From the IMG/VR virus record IMGVR_UViG_3300035698_004505, positions 1 to 33,996 of that record: 33,996 nucleotides of DNA; one strand, given 5' to 3'. Under the pieces are notes generated by a model, which worked only from the letters and a program-made list of their open reading frames with translations, had not been told where the DNA came from and did no database searches. The DNA is from a virus. Below are positions 1,904 through 33,287 of this stretch, piece after piece. Position numbers and translations under genes: made by a program. Position 1 is the stretch's first letter. Every line of letters begins with the position of its first letter.

Positions 1904-2779
1904 ATGCGAGCCTTTCACAATGACGTAAAAATTAAGAATAAATATTTAAGCCGTGTCCGCGCTCATGAAAAAGCTGACGAAGTTGTTAAGGGCAAGTATT
2001 GGGAAAACGGAAAAGGATGTGCGATCGGCTGTACAATTCACGACAGCAACCACGTTACATACGAAAGTATCTTAGGCATACCAAGGATTTTAGCAAGACT
2101 TGAAGATAATATTTTTGAAAACTTGCCAAATGGTTTAGCTAAAACTTGGCCACGTAGATTTTTGGCTTCCATAGAGGTGGGCGCTAATCTAGAAATGGTC
2201 TGGCCTAAATTTGCAACTTGGCTACTAACTGACAGCGAATTTGGTGTGATTCAGTTTGCAAAAACAGATGACCAAAGACAAGCCATTTACAGCGTGTCTG
2301 ACCTGTATGTGCTTAAAGCTGAAGGCGCAGACATTGGCGCAAATGATTGGCTAGAAGCTGCTGCTTATGCTGCTTATGCCGCTAATGCTGCTGATGCTGC
2401 TGCTGATGCCGCTAATGCTGCTTATGCCGCTGATTATGCTGCTGAATATGCTGCTTATGCTGCTACTACTTATGCTGCTACTGCTTATACTGCTGCCGCT
2501 CGTGCTGCTTATGCTACTGCTCGTGCTGCTTATGCTTATGCCGCTAATGCTGATGCTGCCGCTAATGCTGATGCTGCCGCTGATGCTGCCGCTAATGCTG
2601 CCGCTAATGCTGCTACTGCTTATGCTGCTTATGCTGCTGATTATGCTTATGCTTCTTATGCTGTTGCTGCTTATACTGCTACTGCTACTGCTACTGATGC
2701 TTACACTGCTGACGCTCGCACCAAATTTCGTATAGCTCAAAGCAAAAAACTTTTACAGTTACTTAAGGAGTGTAAATAA
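1904..2779 (+). CDS. phage protein with Ala-rich (AAYAANAAD) repeat tail
   Basis: The protein has 291 residues. Residues 1-147 form a globular domain with CAIGCTIH, GIPRILARLED and WPRRFLASIEVGA segments, which I recognise from conserved hypothetical proteins of phages and bacteria whose function is unknown. Residues about 148-270 are a low-complexity tail of Ala pairs alternating with Tyr, Asn, Asp or Thr (units such as AAYAANAAD), encoded by GCT/GCC-rich triplet repeats. The last 20 residues (TKFRIAQSKKLLQLLKEC) are basic and helical. GGAG lies seven bases before the ATG. The tail could form a long Ala-rich helix like type I antifreeze proteins, but no ice-binding or other role can be claimed. 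Confidence 0.85.
   Translation: MRAFHNDVKIKNKYLSRVRAHEKADEVVKGKYWENGKGCAIGCTIHDSNHVTYESILGIPRILARLEDNIFENLPNGLAKTWPRRFLASIEVGANLEMVWPKFATWLLTDSEFGVIQFAKTDDQRQAIYSVSDLYVLKAEGADIGANDWLEAAAYAAYAANAADAAADAANAAYAADYAAEYAAYAATTYAATAYTAAARAAYATARAAYAYAANADAAANADAAADAAANAAANAATAYAAYAADYAYASYAVAAYTATATATDAYTADARTKFRIAQSKKLLQLLKECK
2347..2715 (+). repeat. GCT/GCC triplet-rich repeat tract in coding sequence
   Basis: About 370 bases are built mostly from gctgctNatgct-type units, and all three forward frames plus a reverse frame stay open here. The repeats encode the Ala-rich tail of the 291-aa protein. Such tracts expand and contract by replication slippage, so tail length probably varies between relatives and the tract is a risk for misassembly. 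Confidence 0.85.
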
Positions 2780-2855: not shown

Positions 2856-3041
2856 ATGTATAAATGCCCAACTTGCAACAGCCCAAGGGTGGGTGAGAAA
2901 ATCAGCACCTACCCACTATATAAAAAGCTAAAGCTTATCTACGAACGTGGCTGTTATATGGTCTTGCAATCCGACGGCATCGACTGGGAAAAGGTCGAGC
3001 ACGTTTGCGCGCTACTTCAAGCACCGAAGGTGTCCCAATGA
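2856..3041 (+). CDS. small CxxC protein, 61 aa
   Basis: The 61-aa product opens with a CPTC pair at residues 4-7, and two further single Cys residues lie later, so it may bind zinc through a partial ribbon. The rest is mixed charged and hydrophobic. Its TGA overlaps the ATG of the next gene (ATGA at 3038-3041), which also encodes a CxxC protein, so the two are probably made together. Function unknown. Confidence 0.65.
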   Translation: MYKCPTCNSPRVGEKISTYPLYKKLKLIYERGCYMVLQSDGIDWEKVEHVCALLQAPKVSQ

Positions 3042-3220
3042 CGGCATGTGAGTTATGCGGACGGCGTGGATTTTTAAAGAAGAAAAAGTATGGCACCAAA
3101 GTTTACGTAGCGTGCCCCGAATGTAGGTTAGCTATGAATAAAAACGAGATAATATACGTTGGTGAGTCAGCGAGGATACCTTATAAATGGGAACGAACGA
3201 AAATGATTAGAACACGGTAG
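3038..3220 (+). CDS. small zinc-ribbon protein, 60 aa
   Basis: From ATG 3038 the product begins MTACELCGRRGF and has a second pair CPEC after about 27 residues, giving the CxxC...CxxC layout of a zinc ribbon, followed by a basic tail (KWERTKMIRTR). I chose 3038 over an upstream in-frame start at 3005 because it makes the ATGA overlap with the preceding gene and begins just before the first CxxC. It may bind nucleic acid or a host protein. It is the last gene before the structured region at 3224. Confidence 0.7.
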   Translation: MTACELCGRRGFLKKKKYGTKVYVACPECRLAMNKNEIIYVGESARIPYKWERTKMIRTR

Positions 3221-3223
3221 AAA

Positions 3224-3310
3224 GACAAGTGGCCCATAACCTAGGATTATGAGCCACCTCTAACATTACGCATTGGGTGTGCAATGTTAGGAACTTAAAA
3301 ATTACTTGTC
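3224..3310 (+). ncRNA. candidate three-way-junction RNA structure
   Basis: An outer 7-bp stem (GACAAGT 3224-3230 with ACTTGTC 3304-3310) encloses two hairpins. Hairpin 1 (3231-3255) pairs GGC and CATAA with TTATG and GCC around one mismatch, and has a loop containing the self-complementary CCTAGG. Hairpin 2 (3260-3290) pairs CTAACATT with AATGTTAG, continues with three more pairs after a mismatch, and has the loop ATTGGGT. No U-run follows, and no T-arm or anticodon pattern makes it a tRNA. It could be a stand-alone RNA or a structured leader of the primase gene 65 bases downstream. Confidence 0.5.
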
Positions 3311-3358
3311 CTACCCACAAAGGTCAACATAGTCTTTGTGCTCTCTCATCAAATTAAA

Positions 3359-3375
3359 GCATTGGGGATAAGCAG
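3359..3375 (+). promoter_or_regulatory. leader motif before primase, shared with 8514-8529
   Basis: GCATTGGGGATAAGCAG lies directly against the GTG start of the primase gene and recurs, with one base less, before the exonuclease gene at 8514-8529. GGGGA within it is the likely ribosome site. The conservation extends beyond the ribosome site, so a translational control element is possible. Confidence 0.5.
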
Positions 3376-5705
3376 TGATTCAAATTCTAGGTTTAAGAAA
3401 AATGGACGATGGGACCACCGTCCAAACTTTTGCCGATAAAAAGTGGCAATTCGACACCGTGTCGGACCTCTTCGAGGACACACACACGGTCTTAAATAAA
3501 GTACCAGAAGACGAACGTTACAATCTATATTTCACAGTACATAACTGCGCCGGAATCGAGGCGCGTGACTTCACAGAGCAATGGTTCATGCCGTTTGATA
3601 TAGATAACTGCAAAGAAGAACAAAAAGAAGAAGTGTTCACAGCGTTTTGCGACGTGTTTAAAGTATCAAAAGCAAAAACACTGGCTACGTGGTCAGGCAA
3701 CGGGATGCAATTTTTCATAGAGCTTGAAGAGCCGATAAAAGATAAGCAATACTTCGATATTCACAGACCCGTTTATAAGCTAGCGCTAGAGATGTTAAAA
3801 AAAGAACTCGAGCTTAGGAAGCTTAAGGGAAAGCCCGACTCTTCTGTGTTTTCTTATCGAAGACTTATGCGGTTCCCCGACACGCTGAACGTAAAGCCCC
3901 ACGGAAAAAAGAAAGCATACGTGGTACAAAAGCATGCCGAGCCCCAGGGCTGGAGCTTTTCCAAAGTACTGGCAGTACCCGGAGTCGATAGCCGTGGAGA
4001 AATTCCCATGCGTGAATACGCATCGTATCCGGCACCGGATGTGGAAGCGGTCCAACAGGAGTGCAACTTTTTAATAACTGCCAAAGCCGACCAGAACTCT
4101 TTATCTGAGGAACAGTGGTACGCGGTGCTTGGAATAGTTGGGCATTTGCCCGGAGGCCGCGCCCTAGCCCATGAATATAGCAAAGGCTATAAGGGGTACT
4201 CGGACAGTGAGACCGACTTTAAAGTGGAGCACGCGATTGCGGCCAGTGGTCCTAGGACTTGCGCTAACATTGAAAGCTTAAGTAAGGCGTGCCTTGATTG
4301 CAAACACTATAAATCGGGACTTAGGTCGCCTATTTCCATTAAGGGTGAGAACTATATAGCTAGCGAGGGTGACGGTTTTTACAAGGTGTATATAAACCAT
4401 CGGGGCCAAGAGAAAAAAGAGCCCCAGTACGAAGACCTGGTAAAATACTTGAATAAAAAAATGGGGAAGTCCGCGAACACACCTATTGGAATGTACGTCT
4501 ATGATGAAGAAGAAAAGATATGGGTTACAAAGGATGAAGTAGTTATCAAAAATTTCTTCTATTCTTCTATGCGCCCCAAGCCTCGAAACAACATTGTGGA
4601 AGAAGCGTATAGAACACTTAGCCACTTTAGGGCCATGCCAGTTTCTTTTTTTGATAAGTCAAAAAGGATCGTGAACCTGCAAAATGGTGTTCTTGATATA
4701 AAAACACGGCATCTAATACCCCATTCGCCGGACTTTGGTTTTAGAAATGTGCTGTCATATAACTACGAACAAGGGGCCGAGTGCCCTAATTTTAAGGCAT
4801 TTCTTCTGGGCATAATGTGTGACGATGAGGACTTGGTAAAGATCATCCAAGAATTTATGGGGTACATTGTATCGGGCGACGACTGTTGGTTACATAAGGC
4901 GTTGATCTTTATAGGCGAGGGTAGCAACGGGAAGTCCACCCTTAACCAGGTCTTACTTAGTATGGTGGGGGAAAATAACTGCTCGAAGGTTCCGCTGTCT
5001 AGATTTAGTGACCCGCAGTTTTTGTTCCAGCTTGAGGGTGCACTTGTAAACCTGGCAGATGAGAACAGCCCCGACGCTTTACTTAATTCTGACACGTTCA
5101 AAGAAGCTGTATCGGGCGGGTATATCAACGTAAAGAAGCTCTATTCTCAACCGTACCCTATGAAAAACAGGGCCAAGTTTATCTTTAACTGCAACTCGAT
5201 GCCTATTTCAAAAGACAAAACCATGGGGCTATATCGAAGGATGCTTTTTGTGCCGTTTGATAAGGTGTTTACGGAAGAAACGGCTGACGTATTTATCGTA
5301 GATAAGCTTTTGGAAGAGCTTCCAGGGATTTTAAACTTCGCGCTTGAGGGTTACGACAGGCTTATTAAGAACAAGAAGTTTACGGTGTCAGTTCAGTCAG
5401 AGGACATACTAGATAACTTTAAAGACGCTCAGAACGAAGTTCAGCAATGGCTTGACGAAAGTGTACAAATAATACCAGATAAGGATAGCTTTGTTGCTAG
5501 CTCAGTGCTATACAAGCACTATCAAGATTGGTGCGAGGAAAACAGAAAAAAATATGTCACCAATTTTGCTGAGTTCGGTTTTAAACTTCGGAAGTTTGCG
5601 GCAGCGAATGGTGCTAAGTCTCTTAGGAGAAGGATTGATGAAACTAAAAACCCAATTCGAGGTTACTCCGGGATTAAGCTACTAAAAAAAGAGGAGCGTT
5701 TTTGA
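3375..5705 (+). CDS. bifunctional primase-polymerase / SF3 helicase
   Basis: This 776-aa protein should make primers and unwind the phage origin or fork. The N-terminal third looks like an archaeo-eukaryotic primase: FDID near residues 73-76, SGNG near 106, and an RRLMRFPDTLN segment near 162. A Cys cluster (CANIESLSKACLDC) near 295-310 may bind zinc. The C-terminal half is a D5/P4-type superfamily 3 helicase: Walker A GEGSNGKST near 514, Walker B NLADE, the FNCN sensor motif and the GLYRRM arginine finger. It starts with GTG at 3375, with GGGGA upstream. Its TGA overlaps the TTG of the next gene (TTGA). It is the first replication gene after the structured RNA region. Confidence 0.93.
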   Translation: MIQILGLRKMDDGTTVQTFADKKWQFDTVSDLFEDTHTVLNKVPEDERYNLYFTVHNCAGIEARDFTEQWFMPFDIDNCKEEQKEEVFTAFCDVFKVSKAKTLATWSGNGMQFFIELEEPIKDKQYFDIHRPVYKLALEMLKKELELRKLKGKPDSSVFSYRRLMRFPDTLNVKPHGKKKAYVVQKHAEPQGWSFSKVLAVPGVDSRGEIPMREYASYPAPDVEAVQQECNFLITAKADQNSLSEEQWYAVLGIVGHLPGGRALAHEYSKGYKGYSDSETDFKVEHAIAASGPRTCANIESLSKACLDCKHYKSGLRSPISIKGENYIASEGDGFYKVYINHRGQEKKEPQYEDLVKYLNKKMGKSANTPIGMYVYDEEEKIWVTKDEVVIKNFFYSSMRPKPRNNIVEEAYRTLSHFRAMPVSFFDKSKRIVNLQNGVLDIKTRHLIPHSPDFGFRNVLSYNYEQGAECPNFKAFLLGIMCDDEDLVKIIQEFMGYIVSGDDCWLHKALIFIGEGSNGKSTLNQVLLSMVGENNCSKVPLSRFSDPQFLFQLEGALVNLADENSPDALLNSDTFKEAVSGGYINVKKLYSQPYPMKNRAKFIFNCNSMPISKDKTMGLYRRMLFVPFDKVFTEETADVFIVDKLLEELPGILNFALEGYDRLIKNKKFTVSVQSEDILDNFKDAQNEVQQWLDESVQIIPDKDSFVASSVLYKHYQDWCEENRKKYVTNFAEFGFKLRKFAAANGAKSLRRRIDETKNPIRGYSGIKLLKKEERF

Positions 5706-7138
5706 CGTTTAAATTGATGAAGCATCAAGAAGATGCGATTGCATTGGGCAATTTGGAGCGAGACATATTTCTAGCATGGGAAATGGGGACGGGTAAAAGC
5801 TGCGCCACCATTCAGATACTTCGCCATAGGTACGCGCATAGCGGGCGGTTACTTAAGACCTTGATTTTAGCACCTAAAGTGGTCCTAGATAACTGGAAAA
5901 AAGAGTTTGCCCTTTATAGTAAAGTGGATCAGGGATATATCCACGTTTTAACAGGTTCGCTCGCCAAAAGAACTGAGCATGTTAAAAAGTACCAAGACTA
6001 CTCTTCCATATTTATTACTAACTACGAGGCGTTTGATAACAAGGAATTCGTAGCCACGATTAAAGCATGGGACCCCGAGGTACTGGTATGTGACGAAAGC
6101 CATATGGTAAAAAGCCATAAATCAAAGCGGGCAAAAGCAGTGGCGTATATTTCCGACGGATGCCTTCACAGGTATTTGCTAACGGGAACCCCGATTCTAA
6201 ATTCGGTAATGGACTTATTCCAACAGTACCGAATCCTTGACGGGTATCGTGGAAACGAGTCCACCTTTGGCCACAATTTCTTTGCTTTCAGGAACCGTTT
6301 TTTCTATGACAAAAACCAAGCGTGGGTAGGCAAGTACAACCATTATCCCGAGTGGGCCCCGCGCCCCGGATCACTGGAAAATCTAATGGAGCTGATTGCG
6401 AAAAAGACCATGCGGGTAGAAAAAGCCCAGTGCATGGATTTGCCACCGTATACGGTACAAAATTTAAACGTAGAGATGAGCCCCGAGCAAGGGCGCTTGT
6501 ATAGGGAGATGAAGAAAGACTTCGTCACGTATTTAAATGACAAGGCGATCATTGCCAATTTAGCAATAGTTAAAGCCCTTCGGCTTCAACAGATAGTGTC
6601 CGGGTTTGTAAAGACCGATGACGGGCAAACTACCAGGCTTAGTAAAGTACCACGCCTTGAGGTTTTAAAAGAACAGCTCGAGATGATTACACCAAAGCAC
6701 AAGGTAATTGTGTGGGCCTGCTTTAAGGAAAACTACGTGATGATTCGCGAGCTGTGTAAAGATGCGGGCATTGAAGCCGTAGAGCTGCACGGCGGGGTCT
6801 TGGAAAAAGATAGAAAGATAGCCATAGATAGGTTTACAAATGATGACACAGTTAGAGTTTTAATCGGGAACCAGGGGGCCGCAGGGGTGGGGATCAATTT
6901 GGTTGCGGCCTCCTATTCTATTTATTATTCTCGCACCTTTAAGTTGGGGGATGACCTCCAAAGTGAGGCACGGAACTACCGTCGGGGGTCTGAGATCCAT
7001 GAAAATATAACACGAATTAACTTAGTTAGCCCTGGGACTATTGACAACCTGATATCAGATGCGCTACACTTGAAACTAGATTTAAGCGATAAGTTTCTAA
7101 ACTATATCAAAGAGAAAGGAAGACATTATGGACTCTAA
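5702..7138 (+). CDS. SNF2-type superfamily 2 helicase
   Basis: The 478-aa ATPase has Walker A WEMGTGKS near residues 26-33, the Walker B box CDESH (DESH type), motif III LLTGTP, and a C-terminal RecA-like lobe with motif V (GNQGAAGVGINL) and motif VI (QSEARNYRRG). It belongs with SNF2/DEXH DNA translocases found in phage replication modules, where they probably remodel replication or recombination intermediates. TTG 5702 is taken as the start because GAGGAG lies about six bases upstream and it overlaps the primase stop; ATG 5717 is the alternative. It overlaps the next gene by 11 bases. Confidence 0.92.
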   Translation: MTFKLMKHQEDAIALGNLERDIFLAWEMGTGKSCATIQILRHRYAHSGRLLKTLILAPKVVLDNWKKEFALYSKVDQGYIHVLTGSLAKRTEHVKKYQDYSSIFITNYEAFDNKEFVATIKAWDPEVLVCDESHMVKSHKSKRAKAVAYISDGCLHRYLLTGTPILNSVMDLFQQYRILDGYRGNESTFGHNFFAFRNRFFYDKNQAWVGKYNHYPEWAPRPGSLENLMELIAKKTMRVEKAQCMDLPPYTVQNLNVEMSPEQGRLYREMKKDFVTYLNDKAIIANLAIVKALRLQQIVSGFVKTDDGQTTRLSKVPRLEVLKEQLEMITPKHKVIVWACFKENYVMIRELCKDAGIEAVELHGGVLEKDRKIAIDRFTNDDTVRVLIGNQGAAGVGINLVAASYSIYYSRTFKLGDDLQSEARNYRRGSEIHENITRINLVSPGTIDNLISDALHLKLDLSDKFLNYIKEKGRHYGL

Positions 7139-8535: not shown

Positions 8536-9261
8536 ATGAAAATATTAGGACTCGATTATGAAACATCCTGGACGAATCCAGTTAACGCAAAACTTGCAAG
8601 GCCCACCGAGATCGGTGCGGTCTTGTACTGTACACAGACAAGGAAGCCGTTAAAGATTATGAATGAGCTAATCCATGAGTTAGACCATCCGCAATCCCCT
8701 CCTGAGCTAGTAGCTTTGACAGGAATAACGGACGAAATGAAGGAGACCTACGGCGTCCCCTCCATTAAGGCAATGGGTATGCTTAATGATATGATGGCTA
8801 AGTGTGACTATGTGGTAGCACATAATGGAAACGAATTTGACCGTGTTATATACATGGAAGAGTGTGCCAGGTTTTCCATAGCCCCCTCTTTAAAACAATG
8901 GATTGATACCAAGCTTGATGTTCCATACCCGGAGTATATAAAAACCAGGAAGCTCTCGCACCTGGCAGCCGAACTCGGTTTTGCAAACCCGTTCCAACAC
9001 AGAGCCCTGTTCGACGTTTTGACAATGATTAAAGTAATGGAGCAATTCGACTTTAATGAAATAATAGAGTTAGCTAAACAACCCAACATGACAGTGATTG
9101 CCAATGTTTCTTTCAAGGACAAAGACCTTGCGAAAAAAAGAGGCTACCACTGGGACGGAGAAAACAAACAATGGAAAAAACAAATGAAAGAACCACAAGC
9201 GGAACTAGAAAGGGACCAAGCCCCGTTTCCGGTGACGCTGTTTCAACCGACGACATACTAA
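8536..9261 (+). CDS. DnaQ-like 3'-5' exonuclease with DUF5710-like tail
   Basis: Residues 1-180 carry the DEDDh exonuclease signature: GLDYETS (Asp and Glu near residues 6-9), AHNGNEFD (His96-Asp102), and HRALFD (His155, Asp160). Enzymes of this fold remove nucleotides from 3' ends for proofreading or repair. Residues about 195-222 (VSFKDKDLAKKRGYHWDG followed by QWKK) match the short DUF5710-type module seen at the end of phage and plasmid DNA enzymes. The phage also encodes a polymerase-linked exonuclease at 9585, so this second enzyme probably has a separate role. The final 91 bases overlap the next gene. Confidence 0.88.
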   Translation: MKILGLDYETSWTNPVNAKLARPTEIGAVLYCTQTRKPLKIMNELIHELDHPQSPPELVALTGITDEMKETYGVPSIKAMGMLNDMMAKCDYVVAHNGNEFDRVIYMEECARFSIAPSLKQWIDTKLDVPYPEYIKTRKLSHLAAELGFANPFQHRALFDVLTMIKVMEQFDFNEIIELAKQPNMTVIANVSFKDKDLAKKRGYHWDGENKQWKKQMKEPQAELERDQAPFPVTLFQPTTY

Positions 9262-9443
9262 AAAAACACAGCGACGCCTTGCTTGAGATACACACGTATA
9301 TATCGGGAGTGGAGTTTAACAGACATCGAAAAACCCCCGACCCGTTAATGGCAAACGTGGTTGCGTTTTTGGCACAGGCCCAGGGGGACTTAAACAGATA
9401 CTTGAAACAAAGGATTAAAGATGAAGAGTACGGTAAAGAATAA
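9171..9443 (+). CDS. small protein, 90 aa, unknown
   Basis: It begins within the 3' end of the exonuclease gene (91-base overlap), with GGAG about a dozen bases upstream of ATG. The first 25 residues are polar and probably disordered. Residues 28-85 are helical (DILKKHSDALLEIHTYI, VVAFLAQAQGDLNRYL). Its stop lies 23 bases into the following ribbon-helix-helix gene. Function unknown. Confidence 0.6.
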   Translation: MEKTNERTTSGTRKGPSPVSGDAVSTDDILKKHSDALLEIHTYISGVEFNRHRKTPDPLMANVVAFLAQAQGDLNRYLKQRIKDEEYGKE

Positions 9444-9588
9444 AGAGGTAACCTTTTTTATTAGGAGTTTGCCAAACGAAGTGGCAGCTAAGATTAGAAA
9501 GTACGCCGAAAGAAATAGGATGACTTTAGCCGGGGTGGTTATAAGGATGTCTGAAAAGCTTGAAGACGATGGTTTCTTTTCTAAGTGA
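9421..9588 (+). CDS. Arc-like ribbon-helix-helix protein, 55 aa
   Basis: A 55-codon frame from ATG 9421 reads KEVTFFIRSLPNEVAAKIRKY, then AERNRMTLAGVVIRMSEKL. A short strand with alternating residues followed by two helices is the ribbon-helix-helix (Arc/MetJ) pattern, with TFFIRSLP as the DNA-contacting strand. Such proteins are dimeric DNA-binding repressors. Its end overlaps the GTG start of the polymerase exonuclease gene (GTGA at 9585-9588), so the two are coupled. It is the only likely DNA-binding regulator found in the window and might bind one of the palindromes or heptamers. Confidence 0.7.
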   Translation: MKSTVKNKEVTFFIRSLPNEVAAKIRKYAERNRMTLAGVVIRMSEKLEDDGFFSK

Positions 9589-10139
9589 ACGTCATAGAAG
9601 TAACCAGTGGTCAGTACCAGTCTGTAATCGACAGTTTTGTTGGTAAGCAGTTGGGGATAGATACTGAAACTACTGGTAAATCCTTCTCGGATGTCCCCTT
9701 TGTTCTCACAATAGCTGAAGGGGATAACGTCTATTACTTCGACGTTAAAGACGTGAGCGAATCCGTCGTTCGAGCAGGGTTATTTTTTTCGCATAATATA
9801 AAGTTCGACATAATGATGCTCGAGAAAATAGGGGTGAAGCTAGATGGAGACATCCATTGCACCATGATTACCGAGCGCCTTCTGCGAAATGATATGATGG
9901 CATACTCACTCGATGCCACTGCAAAAAGGTATGGCTACGAGAAAGACGACAGCGCCCTGGCTTTTATAAAACAAAACAAGCTGTACGAAGAGCGTAAAAT
10001 AATGGGTGTCACCATGGACAAGGTCCCGCAATACTCGAAGCTACCAAAGGAACTTCTTCTGAAGTATGCGACCACGGACGCGCACCTCCACTTAAAGATA
10101 GGACAAGCGCAACTTGCAAAGCTTAACGAACCTGCATAA
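9585..10139 (+). CDS. DNA polymerase I-type 3'-5' exonuclease domain (split)
   Basis: The 184-aa product is a complete DEDDy proofreading domain: GIDTETTG (Asp and Glu near 25-27), HNIKFD (His70-Asp75) and YATTDAHL (Tyr161, Asp165). In normal family A phage polymerases this domain continues into the polymerase domain. Here the frame stops at TAA 10137-10139 just after the exonuclease, and the polymerase domain continues in the +1 frame. It starts at GTG 9585, overlapping the previous stop. It should work with the product of the next gene, either as a separate subunit or, if ribosomes shift frame, as one chain. Confidence 0.9.
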   Translation: MNVIEVTSGQYQSVIDSFVGKQLGIDTETTGKSFSDVPFVLTIAEGDNVYYFDVKDVSESVVRAGLFFSHNIKFDIMMLEKIGVKLDGDIHCTMITERLLRNDMMAYSLDATAKRYGYEKDDSALAFIKQNKLYEERKIMGVTMDKVPQYSKLPKELLLKYATTDAHLHLKIGQAQLAKLNEPA

Positions 10140-11304
10140 TAATGAAATGGCACTGCTTCAAGTATGTGCAAGCATGGAGCTGCGGGGTGTTCTTTTAAAT
10201 AAGGCATACGTGCAAGGTGCGTATCGCCACGAAATGGACTTAGTTACTAAAGCGAGGATTGATTTTGAGACGGACACGCGAAGACCATATAAAGACTCAT
10301 CTAAGTTATTTGCTGAAATATTCACCGAAAGAGGCGAGCACTTTCCTAGAACGGATAAAGGAAACCCTTCCTTCACAGGAGATTTCCTTGATCTTTGCAA
10401 CACTAGAACGGGAAAGGTTATTAGAAAAATTAGACACCATGAAAAACGAGCTACCACATACTTCCTAAACTTTATGTACTACATGGATCAAAACGATATG
10501 ATCCACCCTTCGATGAACCAAGCCGGAACCACGACTGGCAGGTTCAGCTACTCCCAACCCAACCTACAAAATTGCCCCAAAGAAGACGAAGAGGCAGACG
10601 CGCTGTCTTTAACTAACGTCCGCAGGTGCTTCATACCACCGCTCGGGTACAAAATATTAGCAGTGGATTATGCGCAGCAAGAGTATCGACTAATGCTCGA
10701 CTATGCGGGCGAGAAAGGGATGATCCATAAAGTAATGGGCGGGGCCGATGTCCACCAAGCTACAGCCGACCTACTCCTCATCTCCCGTAAAAGAGCGAAG
10801 ACATTAAATTTTATGGTTTTATACGGAGGTGGTATTAAAAAACTAGCCGCCGCCCTCGACGTAAACATAATGACAGCTAGGGAAATACGAGACGCCTACT
10901 TCTACAAACTACCAAAGGTTGCGTACTTCATAAAGCAAGTGGCAAAAAGGGGGGAAGAACGTGGCTTTATATATAACAAGTTTGGTCGAAGGTTTTGGTG
11001 CTCCGACTATAGCTTTAGTTATAAACTTCCAAACCATTTAATCCAAGGTACTGGGGCCGATGTAATTAAACACGCCATGGTTAAAATCCACTGCCTTCTA
11101 AAAGATTATCAAACAAAGATGGCTCTACAGGTACACGATGAATTGATCTTCTATCTAAAAGACGGCGAGGAAGAAGTAGTACCAAAGATCAGGGAGATTA
11201 TGGGGTCAGTGTATGACCCGTTTAACGGCATGAAACTTATCACCGACGCCAAGATATCGGACAGGTCTTGGGCGCACTGGGACCTGGAACCATGGACAGG
11301 TTAG
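10114..11304 (+). CDS. family A DNA polymerase, polymerase domain (split)
   Basis: The 396-aa frame carries the family A motifs: motif A VDYAQQEYRLM (catalytic Asp near 185), motif B RKRAKTLNFMVLYGG (Arg225, Lys229), and motif C QVHDELIF (His341, Asp342, Glu343). It is the phage replicative polymerase. Residues encoded from 10114 onward (LTNLHNNEMALLQV...ME.RGV) already match the start of this region in Pol I, so homology crosses the 26-base overlap with the exonuclease frame. The possible TTG 10114 and ATG 10147 starts both lack a clear ribosome site. A frameshift or stop-restart could make it. Confidence 0.92.
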   Translation: MQSLTNLHNNEMALLQVCASMELRGVLLNKAYVQGAYRHEMDLVTKARIDFETDTRRPYKDSSKLFAEIFTERGEHFPRTDKGNPSFTGDFLDLCNTRTGKVIRKIRHHEKRATTYFLNFMYYMDQNDMIHPSMNQAGTTTGRFSYSQPNLQNCPKEDEEADALSLTNVRRCFIPPLGYKILAVDYAQQEYRLMLDYAGEKGMIHKVMGGADVHQATADLLLISRKRAKTLNFMVLYGGGIKKLAAALDVNIMTAREIRDAYFYKLPKVAYFIKQVAKRGEERGFIYNKFGRRFWCSDYSFSYKLPNHLIQGTGADVIKHAMVKIHCLLKDYQTKMALQVHDELIFYLKDGEEEVVPKIREIMGSVYDPFNGMKLITDAKISDRSWAHWDLEPWTG

Positions 11305-12013: not shown

Positions 12014-12510
12014 TGCATACTTTGGGTAGTAACGGCTGCCACAAAACAAACATAGGTTATGTGGTGAAGGCGCTTTAACCAGCCTTTGCCGAACACAGAC
12101 CAGTTAGGATTAGACGCGTAGGCGGAGAATCTATGGTCTTGGTACAGGAACAAAAACTCCATCGGATCTATGTCAGTCAAAGATCCGATGGTAACCGGAC
12201 CTATTATCCCGTCGATGGATGTCTTGCCTATTCGTTGCAGGAATGTTGCAGCCCTGGTAACTCCCTGGTTAACCGCGCAGTCAAAAACTATCAGCCGCAT
12301 AAAACCCGGCAGGTCCTCGCAAGAACACGCGTCCCAGTAGTATTCTTTGTATAGGGCTTTCGCCCTTTGAAGGGACATGTTGTCTATGTCTTCTTTTGGG
12401 AATGCTCTTTTGGAGATGCCATACTTGGTGGCTTTTCCAGGGTCTCGGGGGTCGTCTACCATTCCCCCTTCATGCGTTAATACTATCTGTACTGCTTGCT
12501 CAAAATCCAT
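12010..12510 (-). CDS. GH108 lysozyme (endolysin)
   Basis: The 166-aa enzyme should cleave cell-wall glycan at lysis. Residues 11-33 carry the GH108 signature THEGGMVDDPRDPGKATKYGI with the catalytic Glu14, followed by a YYWD segment and the FDCAVNQG helix. Residues about 96-110 (IDGIIGPVTIGSL) match the peptidoglycan-binding module typical of the family. There is no signal peptide, so release should depend on a holin. It is the last gene of the late operon and overlaps the spanin-like gene upstream by 11 bases. Confidence 0.92.
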   Translation of the reverse strand: MDFEQAVQIVLTHEGGMVDDPRDPGKATKYGISKRAFPKEDIDNMSLQRAKALYKEYYWDACSCEDLPGFMRLIVFDCAVNQGVTRAATFLQRIGKTSIDGIIGPVTIGSLTDIDPMEFLFLYQDHRFSAYASNPNWSVFGKGWLKRLHHITYVCFVAAVTTQSMH

Positions 12511-33106: not shown

Positions 33107-33140
33107 AATATGGCTCCCGTATATAAATTCCACCCCTAGA

Positions 33141-33210
33141 CGCCGTGTCCGGGGGGGGCCGCCGGGGGTCAAGCCCCCTCGCCCTCGCACGCGCCCGCGC
33201 GCGCGGGTCA
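33141..33210. other. GC-rich block, cos/pac candidate
   Basis: 60 of 70 bases are G or C, in a window of much lower GC. It contains a run of eight Gs (33151-33158), GGGGG...CCCCC able to form a 5-bp hairpin (33164-33178), and an alternating CGCGCGCG tract (about 33195-33205). Lying beside the terminase small subunit gene it may be the recognition or cutting site for packaging. Alternating CG can also adopt Z-form DNA. Confidence 0.5.
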
Positions 33211-33287
33211 TGCTATGGACATGGGGTAGGGTGGGACATCCCCTAGATAAACAGGCATGGTATCGGGGCGACTGTAGATTTTTTTCA

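Follow-up and report, generated by a model that had tools for sequence, protein, structure and literature searches.

The folded element directly upstream of the primase gene of this virus contig appears to belong to the control region of the replication operon, as a short transcription unit that reads leftward and is similar to the pO-oop-tO unit of phage lambda; a probability of about 0.6 is given to this reading. Two hairpins with a U-rich tail are present on the minus strand, related loci share the preference for that strand, and a hairpin of this kind recurs at one place upstream of related primase genes. The production of the RNA, its ends and its function are predicted from the DNA sequence.

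The window, that is, the whole stretch of DNA analysed here, is an IMG/VR virus record of 33,996 bases with a G+C content of 45%, and its portal protein is ~40% identical to the portals of HTVC010P-type pelagiphages. Its replication genes are on the plus strand and its structural genes on the minus strand. The genes adjoining the element and those of the replication arm are:

3041-3220, plus strand: upstream gene of ~59 aa, zinc-ribbon-like (CxxC...CPxC), with its stop codon at 3218-3220
3375-5705, plus strand: D5/P4-type DNA primase-helicase, with a GTG start
5702-7138, plus strand: SNF2-type helicase of the replication arm, downstream of the primase
up to 11304, plus strand: DNA polymerase pieces of the replication arm

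The upstream gene has a weak Pfam match to Lar_restr_allev, below the cut-off. Between this gene and the primase lies a non-coding gap of 154 nt (3221-3374); the genes upstream of the gap are on the plus strand, and no leftward operon follows the terminator. The DNA polymerase A is distributed over an exonuclease ORF (8536-9261) and two polymerase ORFs (9585-10139 and 10114-11304) in different frames on the plus strand (8536-11304), which may reflect an assembly error, a split gene or a frameshift. A 291-aa protein encoded at 1904-2779 (plus strand) carries a long low-complexity repeat of Ala, Tyr, Asp and Asn (AAY, AAD, AAN), and its weak PHROG match is to a family of unknown function.

The sequence-only reading of 3224-3310 proposed a three-way-junction RNA on the plus strand. 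All of the inverted repeats on which it was built are present, namely the two arms of the closing stem (listed below), a hairpin at 3229-3257 with a CCTAGG loop and a hairpin at 3260-3290, and the plus-strand 87-mer is indeed structured (-26.5 kcal/mol, z -3.8, 0 of 200 dinucleotide shuffles as low). A tRNA search was negative, as that reading had held, and the window gave no Rfam match above the gathering threshold. The junction is not supported: its 7-bp closing stem is missing from the minimum free energy (MFE) structure of the plus strand of the full 154-nt gap, where the 3' arm pairs with GGGGAUAAG just before the primase start, and the gaps of the relatives collected here showed no equivalent junction.

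The minus strand of the same 87 bases folds far better than the plus strand (-33.4 kcal/mol, z -5.7 against dinucleotide shuffles), and among the 3,392 strand-windows of 87 nt that cover both strands of the whole 34 kb, the one on the minus strand at 3224 has the lowest folding z, -5.9. The C.A mismatch of the first hairpin on the plus strand is a U.G pair on the minus strand; by Watson-Crick score alone this hairpin is unexceptional, with 1-6 such hairpins in each shuffled window. Read leftward, the element is a two-hairpin unit with the U-rich tail UUGUCUUUCU after its last hairpin. Its observed and predicted parts are:

3322-3327, minus strand: predicted -35 box TTGACC of the leftward promoter (sigma70-like position weight matrix)
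3299-3304, minus strand: predicted -10 box TAATTT, a weak match, after a 17-nt spacer
3219-3296, minus strand: predicted short leftward RNA of ~71-78 nt, from the promoter-to-terminator distance, with an uncertain start at 3296-3291
3260-3290, minus strand: 5' hairpin of the leftward RNA, with arms CTAACATTGC/GTAATGTTAG
3227-3259, minus strand: putative terminator hairpin of 13-15 bp whose loop contains CCTAGG; it is located at -146..-118 relative to the primase start, where relatives usually carry theirs
3219-3228, minus strand: weak U-rich terminator tail TTGTCTTTCT, overlapping the stop codon of the upstream gene at 3218-3220
3224-3230, plus strand: 5' arm of the closing stem, GACAAGT, which on the minus strand is part of the terminator foot and tail
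3304-3310, plus strand: 3' arm of the closing stem, ACTTGTC, shared in part with the leftward promoter spacer and with TTGTCC, the -35-like box of the rightward promoter candidate below
3306-3335, plus strand: possible rightward promoter of the primase operon, TTGTCC-18-TAGTCT, which is weak (25% of the window controls are as good)

The predicted RNA of 78 nt folds entirely into two hairpins (-33.4 kcal/mol), and the 3' arm of the closing stem lies outside it. The sequence pattern of an intrinsic (rho-independent) terminator, in which a stable G+C-containing hairpin stands directly before a U-rich tract, is found on the minus strand, and by this pattern the hairpin running from 3259 to 3227 looks like such a terminator. 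Its tail is weaker than in relatives: the U-tract is interrupted in the window, whereas several relatives have 6-8 uninterrupted U. The tail TTGTCTTTCT and the -10 box TAATTT are the weak points of the window's own element. The earlier statement that the element is not a terminator, having no U-run, is therefore right for the plus strand only, as the minus-strand hairpin is followed by this tail and is terminator-like. The suggestion of an undescribed phage ncRNA may well hold for the minus strand, where the RNA would end in a terminator. A second leftward terminator-like hairpin, TGGACGGTGGTCCCATCGTCCA-TTTTTCTT, is located at 3403-3424 (minus strand) within the first codons of the primase.

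Related primase genes provide the main evidence for a conserved position. Thirty-six other loci were collected via helicase and primase alignments, giving 37 with the window; their primases are mostly ~25-35% identical to that of the window, and their start codons were assigned by position. A leftward terminator is located upstream of the primase in 19 of the 37 loci, the window included, often at -110 to -150 and with mostly unrelated sequences, and the strict search found none in the remaining 18. This search gave 21 leftward matches in 12.0 kb of primase-upstream sequence vs 46 in the other 284 kb of the 37 loci (17 vs 14 at a score of at least 14), whereas rightward terminators numbered 4 upstream of primases vs 28 elsewhere. 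On the same contigs, other gaps of at least 80 bases upstream of a gene held a terminator oriented against that gene in 4 of 78 cases, vs 13 of 20 for the primase gaps (Fisher p 2.5e-8). Such p values are too small, since the pairs L119/L125, L047/L127 and L132/L133 are non-independent, although the effect still spans several unrelated stem sequences. All statistics postdate the recognition of the pattern, with thresholds and length window picked post hoc.

The position of the hairpin varies among the loci. In L047/L127, L119/L125 and L048 its end adjoins the primase start and it is followed by 7-8 T on the minus strand, while L129, L132/L133, L142, L143, L146, L149, L151, L168 and L215 have theirs, which carries a leftward T-run, between about -100 and -167; the leftward hairpin is at -132..-66 in L154 and at -63..-25 in L150. 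Terminator and promoter are strongest in the L146/L168 and L132/L133 groups. The upstream genes are on the minus strand in about one third of the loci, where the terminator is often followed by another leftward promoter (median control fraction 0.04), so that the short RNA would be a unit distinct from the leftward operon there. Two loci (L155, L165) carry a rightward terminator-like hairpin directly before the primase (-52..-21) in place of the leftward one. L135 has two tandem leftward terminator-like hairpins (-266..-208 and -166..-108) that share the stem CCGCACCACG and differ in their loops, and these may be a duplicated unit. L119/L125 and L047/L127 have, in the ~100 bases before the primase and upstream of the hairpin, a block (TAGCAYAAAGATWTYGAAAAAGGWAGRTTGTTTTT) whose conservation far exceeds what a terminator requires.

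Closer comparisons yielded few sequences. No close relative spanning the gap was found, the only near-identical contig beginning at window position 4362; exact-pattern scans of viral contigs recovered neither hairpin, and blastn of the gap with the primase start gave no match among cultured phages. The replication module of HTVC010P is of another kind and contains no comparable primase, and none of the cultured phages matches more than ~2/3 of the primases, all at <60% identity. Among the primase relatives, L016/L024, L017/L025 and L026 show a very short gap or none at all before the primase.

The strand preference extends to the relatives. In a strand-symmetric inverted-repeat search, mismatches that are A.C on the plus strand and G.U on the minus strand occurred 21 times and the reverse 7 times, and runs of at least 7 were seen only as A-runs on the 5' plus side, which are T-runs on the minus strand. 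The hairpin of L119/L125 at the end of the upstream gene differs in four pairs between the two loci; all four remain standard on the minus strand (2 compensatory, 2 G-U), whereas some of them break on the plus strand. With two sequences this covariation test is weak, and its score was reached by 125 of 500 shuffles.

For the promoters, a textbook E. coli sigma70 matrix was used, which is not specific to the host. The leftward site TTGACC-17-TAATTT (3327-3299) is the best minus-strand site within -130..-1 of the window's primase, and 2% of composition-matched controls from this contig score as high, while 0 of 120 do so in another control. Across the loci, the 130 bases before the primase are enriched for a rightward promoter with its -35 box near -60 (KS p 2e-8) as well as for leftward promoters (KS p 6e-5). 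The leftward promoters score better in loci with a leftward terminator (p 8e-5), an association that holds among loci with a plus-strand upstream gene (p 0.008). When the RNA start is set 7 bases after the -10 box, the predicted RNA length falls within one 10-nt span (68-75 nt) in 10 of 16 loci; randomly placed promoters put a mean of 4.2 loci into the best 10-nt span, and none of 5000 draws attained 10. The cluster does not hold throughout, as L142 and L215 fell outside it once the search was extended from 90 to 130 bases. The 5' part of the predicted RNA forms a hairpin of its own in the window, L129, L146, L149, L151 and L168.

The recurrent rightward promoter in the relatives' gaps, TTGACA-17/18-TANCCT at about -60 to -40 (TAACCT, TACCCT, TATCCT), differs from the E. 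coli -10 consensus, and the weak rightward site of the window sits where the relatives have it. A candidate common plus-strand motif, TTAACCTAG, was rejected, being consistent instead with the -10 region of this promoter. An antisense promoter within the coding sequence was not clearly indicated by synonymous-site conservation at the 5' ends of the primase genes.

It is plausible that these parts work together as follows. A promoter at ~3327-3299 would start a leftward RNA of ~71-78 nt that forms two back-to-back hairpins, the second of them acting as an intrinsic terminator at the end of the upstream gene and limiting the length of the transcript. The leftward polymerase would use the same DNA as the rightward primase promoter and would collide head-on with rightward read-through, so that the unit may tune how strongly the primase operon is transcribed, and the RNA may have a target of its own as well. 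Since the RNA would barely overlap the upstream gene, antisense action on that gene appears less likely than promoter competition and head-on transcription.

Another reading, which is unlikely, takes the leftward terminator as a mere insulator against divergent or antisense transcripts that originate around the primase promoter, with the short RNA as a functionless by-product; it fits the recurrence of terminators and promoters equally well. Bidirectional promoter activity is described as ubiquitous in prokaryotes (PMC12825309). The clustered RNA lengths, the separate good -35/-10 pair for the leftward start in many loci and the additional 5' hairpin in several of them speak against an insulator alone. 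Chance folding of AT/GC patches is the most improbable explanation: even though single hairpins of such strength arise randomly a few times per 34 kb, the element has the lowest z of the window, and the positional excess in relatives (13/20 vs 4/78 gaps) is strong.

A switch of translation in a plus-strand primase leader, where the closing stem of the junction would compete with the pairing of CUUGUC to the ribosome-binding region GGGGAUAAG, is very unlikely. The alternative CUUGUC pairing is present in the window and the ribosome-binding sites of L023 and L119 can pair with upstream sequence, but the junction is missing from the full-gap MFE, the hairpins of most relatives are too far upstream to reach the ribosome-binding site, and both G-U pairs and T-runs favour the minus strand, so that the structured primase leader of the sequence-only reading is disfavoured. 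Sequestration of the ribosome-binding site was also considered as a general mechanism and rejected, since it suits L119, L048 and L023 but fails for most loci. A DNA-level element without RNA structure, such as an operator or a replication-origin palindrome beside the primase, is just as hard to credit. Promoters are located in the gap too, and L119 and L125 keep nearly all of the 100 bases before the primase, beyond the hairpin; yet a protein-binding dyad would not be expected to show loops from 3 to ~50 and stems of unrelated sequence from one locus to the next, and the T-runs are consistently one-sided.

Two further ideas of the earlier reading found no support among the relatives, whose loops are unrelated: dimer formation through the self-complementary CCTAGG loop, and a packaging RNA. 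The phi29-type packaging RNA is a folded RNA of a small podovirus-like phage. Unlike it, the present element lies beside the primase and not at a genome end, has no conserved loop and prefers the opposite strand.

The lambda OOP RNA is 77 nt long and self-terminating (PMC3349717). It runs leftward as far as the hairpin terminator tO and overlaps the end of cII (PMC5869508) by 52-55 bases (PMC5869508, PMC3349717). Lower pO activity in lambda appears to let more rightward transcription through to the origin and replication region, while the OOP RNA itself seems of little importance for lambda replication (PMC3985674). The transcription unit favoured here resembles pO-oop-tO, judged by sequence only, in that a short leftward RNA would start just before the replication genes and stop at a terminator located where the preceding gene ends. 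Unlike oop, the predicted RNA reaches only the stop codon (3218-3220) of the 59-aa gene, with no antisense overlap of tens of bases; moreover, no cII is recognised in the window, and the replication module has a D5-type primase rather than O/P. The element is not filed as an oop RNA, as no homology is shown and this overlap is lacking.

The role of leftward transcription and of OOP RNA in lambda replication has been disputed for decades (PMC3985674, PMC3349717). If the present reading is correct, the same geometry, kept by position without sequence and alongside an unrelated replication module, would point to the short terminated antisense unit as a general control device and would offer many natural variants of it to test. 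A broader and rather doubtful generalisation is that D5-type primase phages carry a position-conserved, sequence-unrelated leftward RNA of ~70 nt (5' hairpin and terminator) that controls the start of replication, a non-lambdoid counterpart of oop found so far only in uncultivated phages. A hairpin without terminator character on one strand may also be a terminator on the other.

Two other structured regions were observed in the window. A strong hairpin with a leftward T-run at 12159-12191, where both gene arms converge, is probably the terminator of the late genes. The region 33121-33240, which lies between the gene for the small terminase and the end of the contig, has a G+C content of 70% vs 45% for the contig and the lowest folding energy of the window on both strands, and is a possible packaging or end site.
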